From a candidate division FCPU426 bacterium (lineage in GTDB: Bacteria; Oederibacteriota; Muellerivitia; Muellerivitales; Muellerivitaceae): DNA of 38,899 bases. The position numbers were made by a program, and so were the translations under genes. The stretch lies in NCBI GenBank assembly GCA_030041545.1, contig JASHNQ010000058.1, positions 1 through 38,899 on the forward strand, in the 5' to 3' direction. This document shows, in pieces, positions 31,365 through 36,342 of this stretch (the stretch's first letter is position 1; every line of letters begins with the position of its first letter). The notes below the pieces were generated by a model. It saw nothing but the letters and a program-made list of their open reading frames with translations. It was not told the origin of the DNA and did not search any database.

Positions 31365-31997
31365 ATGGAAAGGGTTTGTATCTTTATCGATGGCAGCAAT
31401 TTTTACTTTGGCCTCAAGCGCAACAACCGGGCCACCAGGGTGGATTATCACCAGTTAAGCCTCGCCCTTGCCGGTCCCGACCGGACCCTCGTTCGCACCT
31501 ATTACTACAACGTGGCCTACGACAAAAACCAATTCCCCGATAAGGCCAAAAGCCAAATGTCCTTCCTGGACTCCCTGGATCATACCCCATATTTGGAGCT
31601 TCGCTTAGGCCGCCTTGTTTCGACCTTTGACGGCAACATCCAAGAGAGGGGAGTGGACGTTTTAATGGCTTCCGACTTGGTCTATTACGCCGCCCGGAAT
31701 GCCTTTGATACGGCCATAGTGGTGACGGAGGATGGGGATTATTACCCGGCCTTGGAAAAGGTCAAGGAATTGGGCCGTCACATTGAACTGGGCGCCTTCA
31801 ACGACAGCCAGAATCGGGAGCTTACCCGGGTGGCCGACCTTCGAATCCCCCTGGATTCGGTGTTGGATAAATACTCTTCCAAAATCTTCCCACCTGACGC
31901 GGAAGACAACCGTGGAAACCTCTCCGGGTATTCCGAGACCGTTAAAAAAACATTTATTGGGAAACTGATCCGGAATCAACCGGCGGGTTCAAGATAA
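31365..31997 (+). CDS. NYN-domain protein (LabA/DUF88 type, putative RNase)
   Basis: A 210-residue PIN-like NYN domain. Conserved acidic residues: Asp9 in FIDGSNFYFGL, Asp98 and Asp104 in ERGVDVLMASDLVYYA, and Asp123/Asp125 in VVTEDGDYYPAL. The last 50 residues are a polar tail. NYN proteins are Mg2+-dependent RNases or RNA-binding proteins of diverse roles, some in defence. AAAGG precedes the ATG. Its 3' end overlaps that of the convergent AbiEii gene by nine bases. It lies downstream of the XRE gene in the same direction. Confidence 0.85.
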   Translation: MERVCIFIDGSNFYFGLKRNNRATRVDYHQLSLALAGPDRTLVRTYYYNVAYDKNQFPDKAKSQMSFLDSLDHTPYLELRLGRLVSTFDGNIQERGVDVLMASDLVYYAARNAFDTAIVVTEDGDYYPALEKVKELGRHIELGAFNDSQNRELTRVADLRIPLDSVLDKYSSKIFPPDAEDNRGNLSGYSETVKKTFIGKLIRNQPAGSR

Positions 31998-32864
31998 CTC
32001 CGCGAAAGCCTTGTTGAGGGCTTCCAAGGTCTTTCCCATGTCGAAAATCCTTCTTTCCGCCTGCGTCAGCACGTCCAGAAGTTCCACCTTAACCCTGCTT
32101 TTCATATGGGCTATTTCCTTGTCCGGGCGGCCCAGGTTGGAGCGGTATTTCTTGAGGTCGGTATCGAAACCGTCTTCCGCGAGTTTGGCCTTGAAAAGCC
32201 GCAGGAATTCGCCGTCCTCGAAATCGAATCCCGCCTTGAGCAGGTAGCCCAGGTCGTAAAAGTCCCTTGGCGCTATGCCCAGCCGCGTGGCGGCGGCCCG
32301 CGTTTTTTCGGCCACCATCTCCTTGAGGTTGAGGCAACGGACTTCGCCGCCGTTAAACAAGGGTTCCTGGGTGAAGGGATGCAGGAACTTATGGTGGACC
32401 TTCCCCGTTTCAGGCGGCATGAGCGGGTGGAAGCGCAGGCCGATCTCGATCTTGACGGACTGCCGGCCCGGAAGGGTGGCGGAATCATAGTGGAGATGAA
32501 AAATATACTGGCTGGACTCCCTATGACCGGCGGCTTCAGACTCAACGGCCATGCCGCAACTTTCCGCCCACGGCTGTATTTTCGCCTTGATCGGCTTGAA
32601 GGCCGCGCTTCGGACCGTCCGGGTGATGGGCCCTTTCGGCAACTCCAGCGTGAAATCCAAATCCTCGCTCAACCGGTAGTAGGAAAAATGGACCTTGCTC
32701 AAGGCCGTCCCGCCCTTGAACAAAAGCTTGCCGCTCAAGGCGCCCAACTTGGAAAGCAGGAGCGTCAGGTAATAATCCTTTTCCAGGAGGTTCTGGGGAA
32801 ACCCGGTTTGCGCGGCGGCCCGTTCCAGGATTTTAAGGAACTCCTCCCTGTTTTCACGCGGCAT
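31989..32864 (-). CDS. AbiEii-type nucleotidyltransferase toxin
   Basis: A 291-residue minimal nucleotidyltransferase of the AbiEii family. Signatures: LLEKDYYLTLLL (26-37), LLFKGGTALSKVHF (47-60) and RLSEDLDFTLEL (64-75) with the acidic metal ligands, then LNLKEMVAEKTRAAATR and PRDFYDLGYLL. AbiEii toxins transfer nucleotides to tRNA or other substrates and cause growth arrest or abortive phage infection. It overlaps the upstream AbiEi-like gene by 11 bases, the classical antitoxin-toxin order. Confidence 0.88.
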   Translation of the reverse strand: MPRENREEFLKILERAAAQTGFPQNLLEKDYYLTLLLSKLGALSGKLLFKGGTALSKVHFSYYRLSEDLDFTLELPKGPITRTVRSAAFKPIKAKIQPWAESCGMAVESEAAGHRESSQYIFHLHYDSATLPGRQSVKIEIGLRFHPLMPPETGKVHHKFLHPFTQEPLFNGGEVRCLNLKEMVAEKTRAAATRLGIAPRDFYDLGYLLKAGFDFEDGEFLRLFKAKLAEDGFDTDLKKYRSNLGRPDKEIAHMKSRVKVELLDVLTQAERRIFDMGKTLEALNKAFAELS

Positions 32865-33666
32865 CCAGGATCACCTTCCACTTTTTATTGATCGGCCCTT
32901 TCCTGGATTTGGAACCGTAAAGGGTGACTAAGGCCGACTTCTCCACGCTCTTCAACAGTGGTTTCAACAACCCCTCTTTCACGCCTGCTTTTTCCAAGAC
33001 ATATCCAATTCTTTTACGGGTCGATTTGTTAGGGAAAAGAGCCGCGTATTTGACGAGCTTCCCAACGTCGGCCTTCCGGGACTGGGCCTGTTGCTCCAGG
33101 ATCTCGAAGGCCTTCTTGAGCCCCCCCACCGCGTCCGGGAAATACAGTAAGTCCACCAGGGTTCTTTCCCGGTCGCCGACCAGGACTTCGCCGCCATGGA
33201 GGGATACCTTCACGGTCCCATACAGGCGGGAAGGGGGGATTTTCACCAGCTTGAAGGTCATTTTCCCGATGGATTTTTCCCGTTGAAGGGCGGTGTTGAG
33301 GATGTACATGGTCTGGGGTATCTGGTCCAGGAAGCCGTAATAGTTGTACATACCCGTATAACCGACGTAATAGTTCCCCTTGGGAAAAAGGATGGGGGGA
33401 ACGAGGTATTCATTGAGGCTCGTCCCCGAGGGCCCGGCTTCCAGGGGCGAATAAAAATAAACACCCTTGGTGATCGCCGTGAGGATGCCCTTGTTTTTGA
33501 GTCGGGCCACCGTCTTGGCCAGGACCACTGGTGGATACTTGAACCAGGACCTCATTTGCTCAAGTGTCACCACGGCAGCCTTCTCATAGGAAAGCCGGGC
33601 GATGGCCTTGGTTTCATTCGGGTTCAAGTAGACCATTGTATTATTTTTCACGGTTTTCCCAACCAT
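32854..33666 (-). CDS. AbiEi-type antitoxin / transcriptional regulator
   Basis: A 270-residue protein. The N-terminal winged helix (about 17-70) is followed by the conserved AbiEi core with a GYTGMYNYYGF stretch and SLHGGEVLVGDRERTLVDLL. In type IV systems AbiEi represses the operon and neutralises AbiEii activity without direct binding. An in-frame ATG ten codons downstream (33634-33636) is possible; neither start has a clear ribosome binding site. The gene is 66 bases downstream of a DUF6088 gene. Confidence 0.82.
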   Translation of the reverse strand: MVGKTVKNNTMVYLNPNETKAIARLSYEKAAVVTLEQMRSWFKYPPVVLAKTVARLKNKGILTAITKGVYFYSPLEAGPSGTSLNEYLVPPILFPKGNYYVGYTGMYNYYGFLDQIPQTMYILNTALQREKSIGKMTFKLVKIPPSRLYGTVKVSLHGGEVLVGDRERTLVDLLYFPDAVGGLKKAFEILEQQAQSRKADVGKLVKYAALFPNKSTRKRIGYVLEKAGVKEGLLKPLLKSVEKSALVTLYGSKSRKGPINKKWKVILDAA

Positions 33667-33673
33667 TGGAGAA

Positions 33674-33693
33674 ATTGTAAATTTTATTACAAT
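33674..33693. promoter_or_regulatory. inverted repeat upstream of the AbiEi gene
   Basis: ATTGTAA-ATTTTA-TTACAAT, a perfect 7-base palindrome eight bases upstream of the AbiEi start and within the spacer to the DUF6088 gene. AbiEi proteins bind inverted repeats near their promoters, so this is a candidate operator. Confidence 0.5.
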
Positions 33694-33732
33694 AGCAGCC
33701 CAAGGTCCGCCCTAGTGAGGGAAAAGTAGGGT

Positions 33733-34329
33733 TCAGCCAAGGCCGCCGGCTTCCCCCAGCAATCCGGCGATCCATTCCGGGAATGATGCCCTTGAGGCGA
33801 CCATCAGTTCCCACTCTTCCTTGGGAAGTTTCCGCCGGATTTTGGCGAGGGCTTCCCTCCCCTGGGCCCGCCCGACCCAGGCCAAGGCCCGCACGGCCAT
33901 CCCGGCGGGGCGGTCGCCCAAGGACAACTGCCACCGTGGCGCGTGCTTGAAACGGATGGTGCGTTTCCCGAGCCTCAGGGTCCGGTTCCTGCCCGAGGTG
34001 AAAAAAATCTCCTGGACGGGAACCTGGGTGGTCAAGCCAAGGGCATTGGCCGCCACCGCCCCGTTGGGGGCCACATTCTCGCCCTTTCTGGCCGCGAGGG
34101 ACTTGATGACGGCTTCCGGGGACGGGGGGCGGCTTCCGAAGCGGCCCTCCACGGGGGCCACGTAGGTCCCGCGCCCAACCCGGATCAATTTCCCGGCTTT
34201 CGTCAGGCGGGTAAAGGCCTGGTCCACGGCGGCGCGGGTGTTGGGGCCCAAAAACTCCTTGGGGGACAACACGCTACCCTCCGGCAAGGCCTTAGATGAA
34301 TTGAGGATGGTTTGGAACAAGGGACTCAT
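33733..34329 (-). CDS. DUF6088 / AbiEi-like antitoxin protein
   Basis: A 198-residue protein of the DUF6088 type. An N-terminal winged helix (TRAAVDQAFTRLTKAGKLIR, then GTYVAP, about 31-58) is followed by SPEAVIKSLAARKGENVAPN, GLTTQVPVQEIFFTSGRNRT and FKHAPRWQLSLGDRPAG. The family normally acts as antitoxin to a nucleotidyltransferase. Here the next gene is a second, different AbiEi-type protein and only one AbiEii toxin follows. It has its own promoter and palindrome upstream. Confidence 0.8.
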   Translation of the reverse strand: MSPLFQTILNSSKALPEGSVLSPKEFLGPNTRAAVDQAFTRLTKAGKLIRVGRGTYVAPVEGRFGSRPPSPEAVIKSLAARKGENVAPNGAVAANALGLTTQVPVQEIFFTSGRNRTLRLGKRTIRFKHAPRWQLSLGDRPAGMAVRALAWVGRAQGREALAKIRRKLPKEEWELMVASRASFPEWIAGLLGEAGGLG

Positions 34330-34342
34330 GGGTGATATTCCT

Positions 34343-34379
34343 TTGTCAGAATTATATGTTTATTTCTGACAATCTTCAA
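34343..34379 (-). promoter_or_regulatory. promoter and operator of the DUF6088 operon
   Basis: On the minus strand: -35 TTGAAG (34374-34379), 17-base spacer, -10 TATAAT (34351-34356). A perfect inverted repeat TTGTCAGA (34343-34350) / TCTGACAA (34365-34372) flanks the -10, well placed for repression by the DUF6088 protein. Confidence 0.65.
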
Positions 34380-34475
34380 GCGGGTGATTTTCACGTTTCC
34401 GGGCATCGGCCATGACGCCCGTGCCATAGGAGGCCTTCCGGCTGCAAAGGAACCAGCGGTTATCCCAACAAAAAA

Positions 34476-34498
34476 GGGGTAGCCATCGGAGCTACCCC
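34476..34498 (-). terminator. rho-independent terminator (minus direction)
   Basis: GGGGTAGC (34476-34483) and GCTACCCC (34491-34498) with a seven-base loop, followed on the minus strand by T6. It ends transcription entering from the HPr-like gene or the TnpB relic. Confidence 0.75.
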
Positions 34499-34536
34499 TA
34501 ATAAGGCATCTTGGTTTTTAAATAATTTCAATGAAC

Positions 34537-35026: not shown

Positions 35027-35929
35027 TTAGGGTTTTCCCGCAGCCAAATCGATCCGGGTCCAGACGTCGAATTTTTCGGGTTCCGGCGTGGCCTGGGAAC
35101 TTGCGCCATTCTCCCCACCGCCACCGCCGCCACTAAACCCACCGCCTAAGTGGGCGCCAAGGCCAAATCCTCCTCCGCCGAACCCGCCGCCCAATCCCAT
35201 GCCCCCGCCTCCATGGTGCCGGCCGCCGCCGGAACGCTTTTTCTGCCTCTGGAATTCCTCGCCGATCATTTCCAGGGACAAGGCTCCCTTTTGCGCCAGT
35301 TCCGGGGGAAAAGGCGATTGACCCCCGCCACGGAGGGGAATCTTGATCTCGTAAACAAAGGTGTAGTTGTCCAGGTAAGCGGCCCAGGACTCAAAGCCGT
35401 TTTGGGCCAGGGCTTGGGAGGTTATGGTCACGGTGCCTCCCTGCCCATCAAGGATTTCCAAATCCTCCGGGATGAATCCGCCCTGAGGGGCCGTCCCCTG
35501 CGCCGGGGATGGCGCGCCGGGGGATGGCGGGGCGGCCGGGCCCTGGGCCGTGACCGCTGTGGCGCCGGTCGTGTCCTCGGTGGTCACCTCGGGGAATTGG
35601 ATTCCAAAGGCCTTCGCCGAGCCCCCCTCGGGGTCGAACCAGGCCGTCAAACCCACGGAGGTGACGGGAAGGGACGAATCCGGGTTTTCCTCGGTGTCCG
35701 TATCGCGGAAGACCATGGCGAGGAAGAGGGAGTCCTCGTTATTGGCGGCGCCCAGAGAAACCTTTGGGCCGTTGACCTCGGTTACGCCGCCGTTCCAGCC
35801 CTGGATGTCCCCGCTGAAGGGTGGGGCCTTTTCCATCCAGACGCTTTTCACGCCCACCGTTCCGCAACCCCCCGCCATCAAGGACGCCAAAAACAAAATG
35901 GGCAAACCCAGTCCGATTCTGTTTTTCAC
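35027..35929 (-). CDS. glycine-rich lipoprotein of unknown function
   Basis: A 300-residue protein with a lipoprotein signal: hydrophobic GLGLPILFLASLMAGGC, Cys22 being the likely lipidated residue. A beta-rich domain follows, with a WNGGVTEVNG...SLFLAMVFRDTDT pattern that recalls CBM9/DOMON-like folds, then a Pro/Ala linker (about 130-155), and a C-terminal segment rich in Gly with HHGGGG and repeated GGGF units (about 240-280). The GTG at 35927-35929 has GGAGGTG upstream; the longer reading has no signal peptide. Function is unknown. Confidence 0.7.
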   Translation of the reverse strand: MKNRIGLGLPILFLASLMAGGCGTVGVKSVWMEKAPPFSGDIQGWNGGVTEVNGPKVSLGAANNEDSLFLAMVFRDTDTEENPDSSLPVTSVGLTAWFDPEGGSAKAFGIQFPEVTTEDTTGATAVTAQGPAAPPSPGAPSPAQGTAPQGGFIPEDLEILDGQGGTVTITSQALAQNGFESWAAYLDNYTFVYEIKIPLRGGGQSPFPPELAQKGALSLEMIGEEFQRQKKRSGGGRHHGGGGMGLGGGFGGGGFGLGAHLGGGFSGGGGGGENGASSQATPEPEKFDVWTRIDLAAGKP

Positions 35930-36342
35930 AAGGCACCTCCGGTGTTTTGAGCGGTTCAAAAAGGCGTTCCGGCCCCAACCCGGGCCGCAGGGATGGACGC
36001 AGGGCCCGTGAACCGGGGGGGTAAGGAATGATGTCGGAAACCATCGCGGGGCGGAATTCAACCGGATTTCATTCAAAGTGCAAGATTTTCATTGCTTGGA
36101 ATTTGGACGTGCTCTCGGGGGAAAAGTGCCGCCGCGCGTCAGAGTGAACATAAAAGCGGTTGTTGAACCGCTGAGAATTATGTGAAGTAAAAACCGAGTC
36201 GTGCTCATAGCCTCGGACATGTTCTTTTACGCAACCCGGAAAATAAAATAGTTTTCCCGGAAGCATTCTCCCCATATAAGAGACTGTAGCAAAACCACCC
36301 ACCAAGGCTTTCTTTGTTGGGGCTCGAACCTTAAAAGAGGGG
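35930..36342. other. 413-base spacer without a recognised gene
   Basis: A short open reading (36069-36305, minus) has no family resemblance and no ribosome binding site, so I do not annotate it. The spacer holds one terminator-like hairpin (separate entry) and otherwise nothing I recognise. Confidence 0.5.
36150..36172 (-). terminator. probable rho-independent terminator (minus direction)
   Basis: AGCGGTT (36155-36161), GTTG loop, AACCGCT (36166-36172), followed on the minus strand by TTTAT. It lies about 170 bases after the stop of the large secreted protein gene. Confidence 0.5.

Follow-up and report, generated by a model that had tools for sequence, protein, structure and literature searches.

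The three-gene operon examined here is very probably the scar of a replacement, in which a DUF6088 antitoxin gene lost its own toxin gene and a complete foreign AbiEi-AbiEii pair came to stand in its place. The genes are located on the minus strand of the window, which refers to the whole stretch of 38,899 nucleotides that was analysed, in the order DUF6088, AbiEi and AbiEii (Table 1). Named relatives place the genome in or close to candidate division FCPU426. The position and strand given for them in a preliminary description were confirmed, and all 3 genes are full length and encode proteins that score above the Pfam cut-offs (PF19570 at 96.6 bits for DUF6088, PF09407 AbiEi_1 at 36.2 bits for AbiEi, and PF08843 at 110.9 bits for AbiEii). 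The PADLOC search assigned the DUF6088 protein to the AbiEi model PDLC02226 (209 bits), the AbiEi protein to another AbiEi model, PDLC02267, and the toxin to the AbiEii model PDLC02304. The DUF6088 and AbiEi proteins were found to be distant homologs in an hhalign profile comparison (probability 96.6, E 5e-10).

Table 1. Positions of the genes and regulatory elements at the DUF6088-AbiEi-AbiEii locus in the window.
Feature	Positions	Strand	Description
Right-hand boundary	31950-31997	+	Final codons of the convergent NYN gene enter the abiEii 3' end
AbiEii nucleotidyltransferase toxin	31989-32864	-	291 aa; start overlaps abiEi by 11 bp
AbiEi antitoxin	32854-33666	-	270 aa; 260 aa if the ATG at 33636 is used
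AbiEi operator (putative)	33674-33693	.	ATTGTAA-N6-TTACAAT, upstream of AbiEi
Putative remnant of the cognate AbiEii	33705-33740	-	(M)AEPYFSLTRAD; TTG start plus 11 codons, overlaps the DUF6088 stop
DUF6088	33733-34329	-	198 aa; orphan AbiEi-type antitoxin, predicted autorepressor
DUF6088 operator (putative)	34343-34372	.	TTGTCAGAA-N12-TTCTGACAA, upstream of DUF6088
Sigma70-type promoter (predicted)	34351-34379	-	TTGAAG-N17-TATAAT; -10 inside the operator arms
Probable intrinsic terminator of the upstream HPr gene	34475-34499	-	10-pair stem, then T-run

The probably lost partner of the DUF6088 antitoxin

The gene located next to DUF6088 was examined for 97 DUF6088 genes, and was an intact AbiEii gene of about 340 amino acids in 66 cases, a broken AbiEii gene in 5 cases, some of which may be assembly errors, and no AbiEii gene in 21 cases, while the remaining 5 genes were located at a contig end. 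The intact toxin gene, found in 66 of the 92 scorable loci, was positioned directly downstream and usually overlapped DUF6088. The partner toxin corresponded to PDLC02289 in the 2 loci tested, and thus to another subfamily than the toxin in the window. A complete partner of the PDLC02289 type was present in genome G006, the DUF6088 protein of which is 76% identical to that in the window. Directly behind DUF6088 in the window, the cognate AbiEii gene of about 340 codons is absent, and only about 12 codons are left.

Aligned at the stop codon of DUF6088, the intact toxins begin with, for example, MPESYFSLSKDDQKEALE in G006 and LSESWFALSRADQAEALE in locus L034. In the same frame and at the same position, the window contains LAEPYFSLTRAD, as compared to MPESYFSLSKDD in G006 and LSESWFALSRAD in L034, after which the frame in the window diverges and reaches a stop codon. 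With a profile of 21 intact toxins, this stub was the highest-scoring 11-mer in the window (77,732 on the two strands together), with a score that falls within the leave-one-out range of the real toxins, and the stub region could also be aligned at the DNA level with G006 and with G003. Judging from the sequence, the gap between DUF6088 and AbiEi is not a mere spacer and holds what we read as the first 12 or so codons of the lost toxin, and since this stub is present, the missing partner of DUF6088 is accounted for. The stub covers only 12 residues, albeit in exact register, and the intact ancestral arrangement was found at the same site in no genome, both of which count against a replacement.

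On a quick tree of DUF6088 with several long branches, loss of the toxin with retention of the antitoxin required 18 changes or more. Stubs of the same kind were identified behind the orphan antitoxin genes in L018, L043, L044, L052, and L055, and no stub was found behind those in L047, L048, and L067. In G003, which belongs to the same family as the window genome, a DUF6088 gene for a protein 74% identical to that in the window is followed by a stub of about 35 codons with an in-frame stop codon, and then by an AbiE pair of yet another subfamily, PDLC02266/02294. In 2 Paracoccaceae, an AbiEi_3-AbiEii pair on the opposite strand was located behind the DUF6088 gene, and other DUF6088 orphans adjoin RES-Xre, HipA, AbiE, and other modules. 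The association of a second AbiE pair with DUF6088 orphans had a Fisher p value of 0.0006 when 3 loci with broken cognate toxins and the window were counted, and was only suggestive when these 4 were left out and L052 and L057 were treated as a single event.

A few individual loci were also noted. RES-Xre toxin-antitoxin genes are located right behind a DUF6088 orphan with a toxin stub at L055:2095-3182. At L019:5277-6904 (G003:C82), the gene behind a divergent DUF6088 gene encodes an AbiEi_3-type antitoxin and the next one a Fic protein; AbiEii was not detected there, leaving 2 antitoxins without a toxin. The genome from which the window was taken contains a second, divergent DUF6088-AbiEii system, which is complete (L024:6008-7763, C106), and a further AbiEi-AbiEii locus (L025:4440-5042, with AbiEii at G000:C101:53154-53840); matches to AbiEii were obtained at 6 places in all in this genome.

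The DUF6088 orthologs in G003 and G006, which are both members of the window genome's family, are 74% to 76% identical to the window protein, with pN values of 0.15 to 0.16 and pS values close to saturation. Because the synonymous sites are near-saturated, dN/dS cannot date the loss of the toxin. The AlphaFold model of the DUF6088 protein (pLDDT 94) contains an N-terminal winged-helix-like domain; in a fold search, no solved structure reached E≤0.001 and the hits were winged-helix domains with weak E values, and sequence searches against the PDB gave no useful match. Since DUF6088 orphans are common elsewhere, the intactness of the gene may reflect a recent loss of the toxin rather than a function.

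Orphan antitoxins, for which anti-addiction has been proposed as a role (PMC7192599, PMC11541004), are already known (PMC7192599, PMC12654330). By analogy, the DUF6088 orphan may have been kept because it protects against incoming DUF6088-AbiEii elements, including AbiEii toxins linked to DUF6088 on plasmids, a reading that is compatible with a replacement and that we put forward tentatively. It fits with the DUF6088 relatives encoded in 423 plasmid records and with the complete system in G006, but selection on the antitoxin before and after the loss of the toxin is inseparable.

The AbiEi-AbiEii pair and its boundaries

The toxin in the window has the features of a type IV nucleotidyltransferase, with hG[G/S]x15DhD and motifs III and IV as defined for AbiEii (PMC3985639), and the motifs KGG-x15-DLD, EKxRAA, and APRDFYD are conserved in an alignment of 9 sequences. 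The AbiEi protein likewise conforms to the type IV pattern, with a winged-helix domain and a C-terminal antitoxin domain encoded just upstream of the toxin gene, and its structural model matches Rv2827c (1zel, E 2e-8) and AbiEi of S. agalactiae (6y8q, E 1e-7). The second ATG, at position 33636, is more likely to be the start codon of AbiEi than that at position 33666, since AATAATACA|ATG agrees with the context of the start codon in the relatives.

We examined 12 relatives of the AbiEi protein (L119-L130; 45% to 59% identity), 10 of which are followed directly by a gene for AbiEii, split by a frameshift in one case; of the other two, one is located at a contig end and in the other the gene for AbiEi itself is broken. 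No DUF6088 gene was found in the flanking sequence examined for the 12 relatives. The palindrome ATTGTAA-N6-TTACAAT in the AbiEi promoter region is short and weak when taken alone, and related elements precede the homologous pairs, such as TATTGTAAAGAAATTTACAATA in L126 and similar half-sites in L121, L122, L124, and L128. Furthermore, the upstream block around TATTGTAATAAAATTTACAAT is akin to that of the AbiEi relatives, and the palindrome is a putative AbiEi binding site. As far as can be judged from these comparisons, the pair is autonomous and brought its operator along. In viruses and plasmids, this AbiEi subfamily had only distant relatives.

An alternative is that the locus is a true three-component system, in which DUF6088 and AbiEi both act on AbiEii, one of them as a second antitoxin or a chaperone. 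The tight same-strand arrangement of 3 intact genes would agree with this, as would the distant homology of the 2 antitoxins. However, the subfamilies of the partners differ, the relatives of the pair have no DUF6088 gene nearby, the stub explains why DUF6088 lacks a partner of its own, and the DUF6088 orphan in G003 stands with a different pair; we consider a three-component system highly improbable. DUF6088 as a second antitoxin of the 291-residue AbiEii was rejected as the main reading on the basis of the subfamily pairing and the autonomy of the pair, and for the same reasons the preliminary suggestion of a two-layer control of one toxin was not borne out at the protein level. Nor were the same 3 subfamilies seen together around the 12 relatives of the pair or in the other scorable DUF6088 loci: the exact triplet, for which a search had been recommended, was found nowhere else, and the loci in G003 and the Paracoccaceae are analogous only. 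The other preliminary suggestion was a composite of 2 systems, one of which has lost its toxin; the stub in register, the mismatch between the subfamilies, and the autonomous pair all speak strongly for it.

We propose that the history began with a DUF6088-AbiEii operon with its own promoter and operator, that the cognate AbiEii gene would then have been deleted beyond about codon 12, and that the place of the deleted toxin is now taken by the autonomous AbiEi-AbiEii pair, which belongs to another subfamily. We also considered whether homologous recombination between the toxin genes had inserted the pair, which is unlikely, since abiEi and the operator came too.

Of 11 relatives, 8 have an exact TTGACA ahead of the pair, and no recognizable -35 box was found before the pair in the window, where the best promoter score between the genes was ordinary for shuffled sequence. 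Only the operator and -10 part is retained. Because the toxin stub and the sequence at its edge take up the position of the -35 box, the junction is probably located between this position and the operator, around 33704-33696.

On the opposite side of the pair, a convergent gene for an NYN-domain protein (31365-31997, plus strand) shares its last 9 bp with the end of abiEii. The NYN protein ends after KTFVK in genome G004 and continues as KTFIGKLIRNQPAGSR in the window, and this continuation into abiEii without the stop codon of the homologs marks the second boundary. Homologs of the NYN protein were identified in all 8 family genomes searched; no toxin-antitoxin locus was located beside them in the stretches examined, and an empty site was not found. 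It was also noted that a neighbouring gene (35027-36076) encodes a protein of 349 amino acids with a glycine-rich C-terminal part, which had no match in the other 7 family genomes.

Operators, promoters and a possible regulatory link

As had been described, a palindrome is located upstream of each antitoxin gene, and the 2 palindromes differ in sequence; the perfect TATAAT of the DUF6088 promoter is indeed flanked by an operator, with the -10 box between the operator arms. The operator TTGTCAGAA-N12-TTCTGACAA had one match in the window, as compared to 0.02 expected in shuffles, and is present in a single copy in the whole genome. The promoter scored 10 of 12, above 500 shuffles; like the other promoter statements here, this relies on the sigma70 consensus, applied to an uncultured phylum. 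The probable terminator of the HPr gene would isolate the DUF6088 transcription unit from that gene.

Of 96 loci, 78 had the sequence TGTCAGA-spacer-TCTGACA ahead of DUF6088 when up to 2 mismatches out of 14 were allowed, as compared to 1 of 1,920 shuffled upstream regions. The spacer was 14 (15 in 2 cases) where the DUF6088 protein was at least 44% identical to that in the window (40/43), and with few exceptions 16 for the more distant proteins, so that the spacer length tracks the protein clade. According to the record titles, the phyla represented include Pseudomonadota, Planctomycetota, Verrucomicrobiota, Elusimicrobiota, Omnitrophota, Gemmatimonadota, and Acidobacteriota. The locus in the window carries TGTCAGA-N14/16-TCTGACA over the -10 box, a feature of DUF6088-AbiEii loci found in the present analysis. 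The conservation of the operator across loci supports a role for DUF6088 as an autorepressor, as has been shown for AbiEi (PMC3985639) and Rv2827c (PMC7319586), and we infer that the protein binds this site. Binding of DUF6088 at the AbiEi palindrome was considered as well, but no second DUF6088-like site was found in the window, and the sites elsewhere in the genome had 3 mismatches and occurred at the control rate, which argues against cross-binding.

In the locus that very probably resulted from the replacement, DUF6088 would still bind the operator over the -10 box and repress its own promoter. Since the gap between DUF6088 and abiEi showed no terminator, transcripts can continue into abiEi-abiEii, the own promoter of which looks crippled, and AbiEi alone would neutralize AbiEii. 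The newcomer pair may in this way have been placed under the promoter of the old gene, on which it may depend, since its -35 box is gone and only the operator and -10 part is left. Transcriptional control of the pair by DUF6088 is plausible, and it is probably through transcription only that DUF6088 affects the toxin in the window.

Whether DUF6088 has become the main repressor of the acquired pair, with nested regulation from 2 operators, is a sub-case of the replacement rather than a competing explanation, and we consider its chances to be about even. The intact operator and promoter of DUF6088, the gap without a terminator, and the loss of the -35 box of the pair with retention of its operator are in line with such a capture, although a weak internal promoter is possible. 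It may instead be that the locus is a plain defence-island neighbourhood of 2 units with separate promoters and without regulatory ties to one another. AbiEi keeps its own operator, and the varied modules next to DUF6088 orphans elsewhere indicate that turnover at such sites is common, but the junction is located inside the toxin stub and the pair has no detectable -35 box, and we regard this as possible without being probable. More speculatively, exchange of a toxin for an entire homologous toxin-antitoxin pair behind a kept antitoxin may be a recurrent route to nested regulation, with the old antitoxin repressing the newcomer pair via its highly conserved operator, which we regard as less likely than not.

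Comparison with known systems

With a replacement, a puzzling operon with 2 antitoxins and one toxin becomes a readable evolutionary history, in which the first codons of the lost toxin are still there. A search for toxin stubs is advisable before similar gene triplets are named tripartite systems. The locus also provides a concrete and testable case of promoter capture, and the DUF6088 operator a putative DNA-binding site, nearly invariant over many phyla, for an uncharacterised family.

The AbiEi-AbiEii pair resembles type IV AbiE systems (PMC3985639) in being bicistronic with the antitoxin gene first, in the overlap of the genes, in the upstream inverted repeat, and in the nucleotidyltransferase motifs, but is located behind an antitoxin gene of another subfamily and lacks the TTGACA -35 box that is usual in its relatives. 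AbiEii/DUF6088 has been listed as a novel pairing (PMC12654330), and the DUF6088 protein, promoter, and operator in the window are typical of such PDLC02226/PDLC02289 pairs, whereas the cognate AbiEii is cut to about 12 codons. Rv2827c of the Rv2827c-Rv2826c system in M. tuberculosis (PMC7319586) has the closest fold to the AbiEi protein, and both families have inverted repeats over the promoter. However, Rv2827c has 4 repeats of 23 bp, whereas the AbiEi gene in the window is preceded by one short palindrome and the DUF6088 operator has arms of 7 to 9 bp and a fixed spacer. Finally, as for the orphan antitoxins described previously (PMC7192599, PMC12654330), the antitoxin is intact, the toxin is gone, and the pattern is recurrent across genomes, but in the window the junction additionally preserves a stub of the toxin, next to a replacing pair of broadly the same type.
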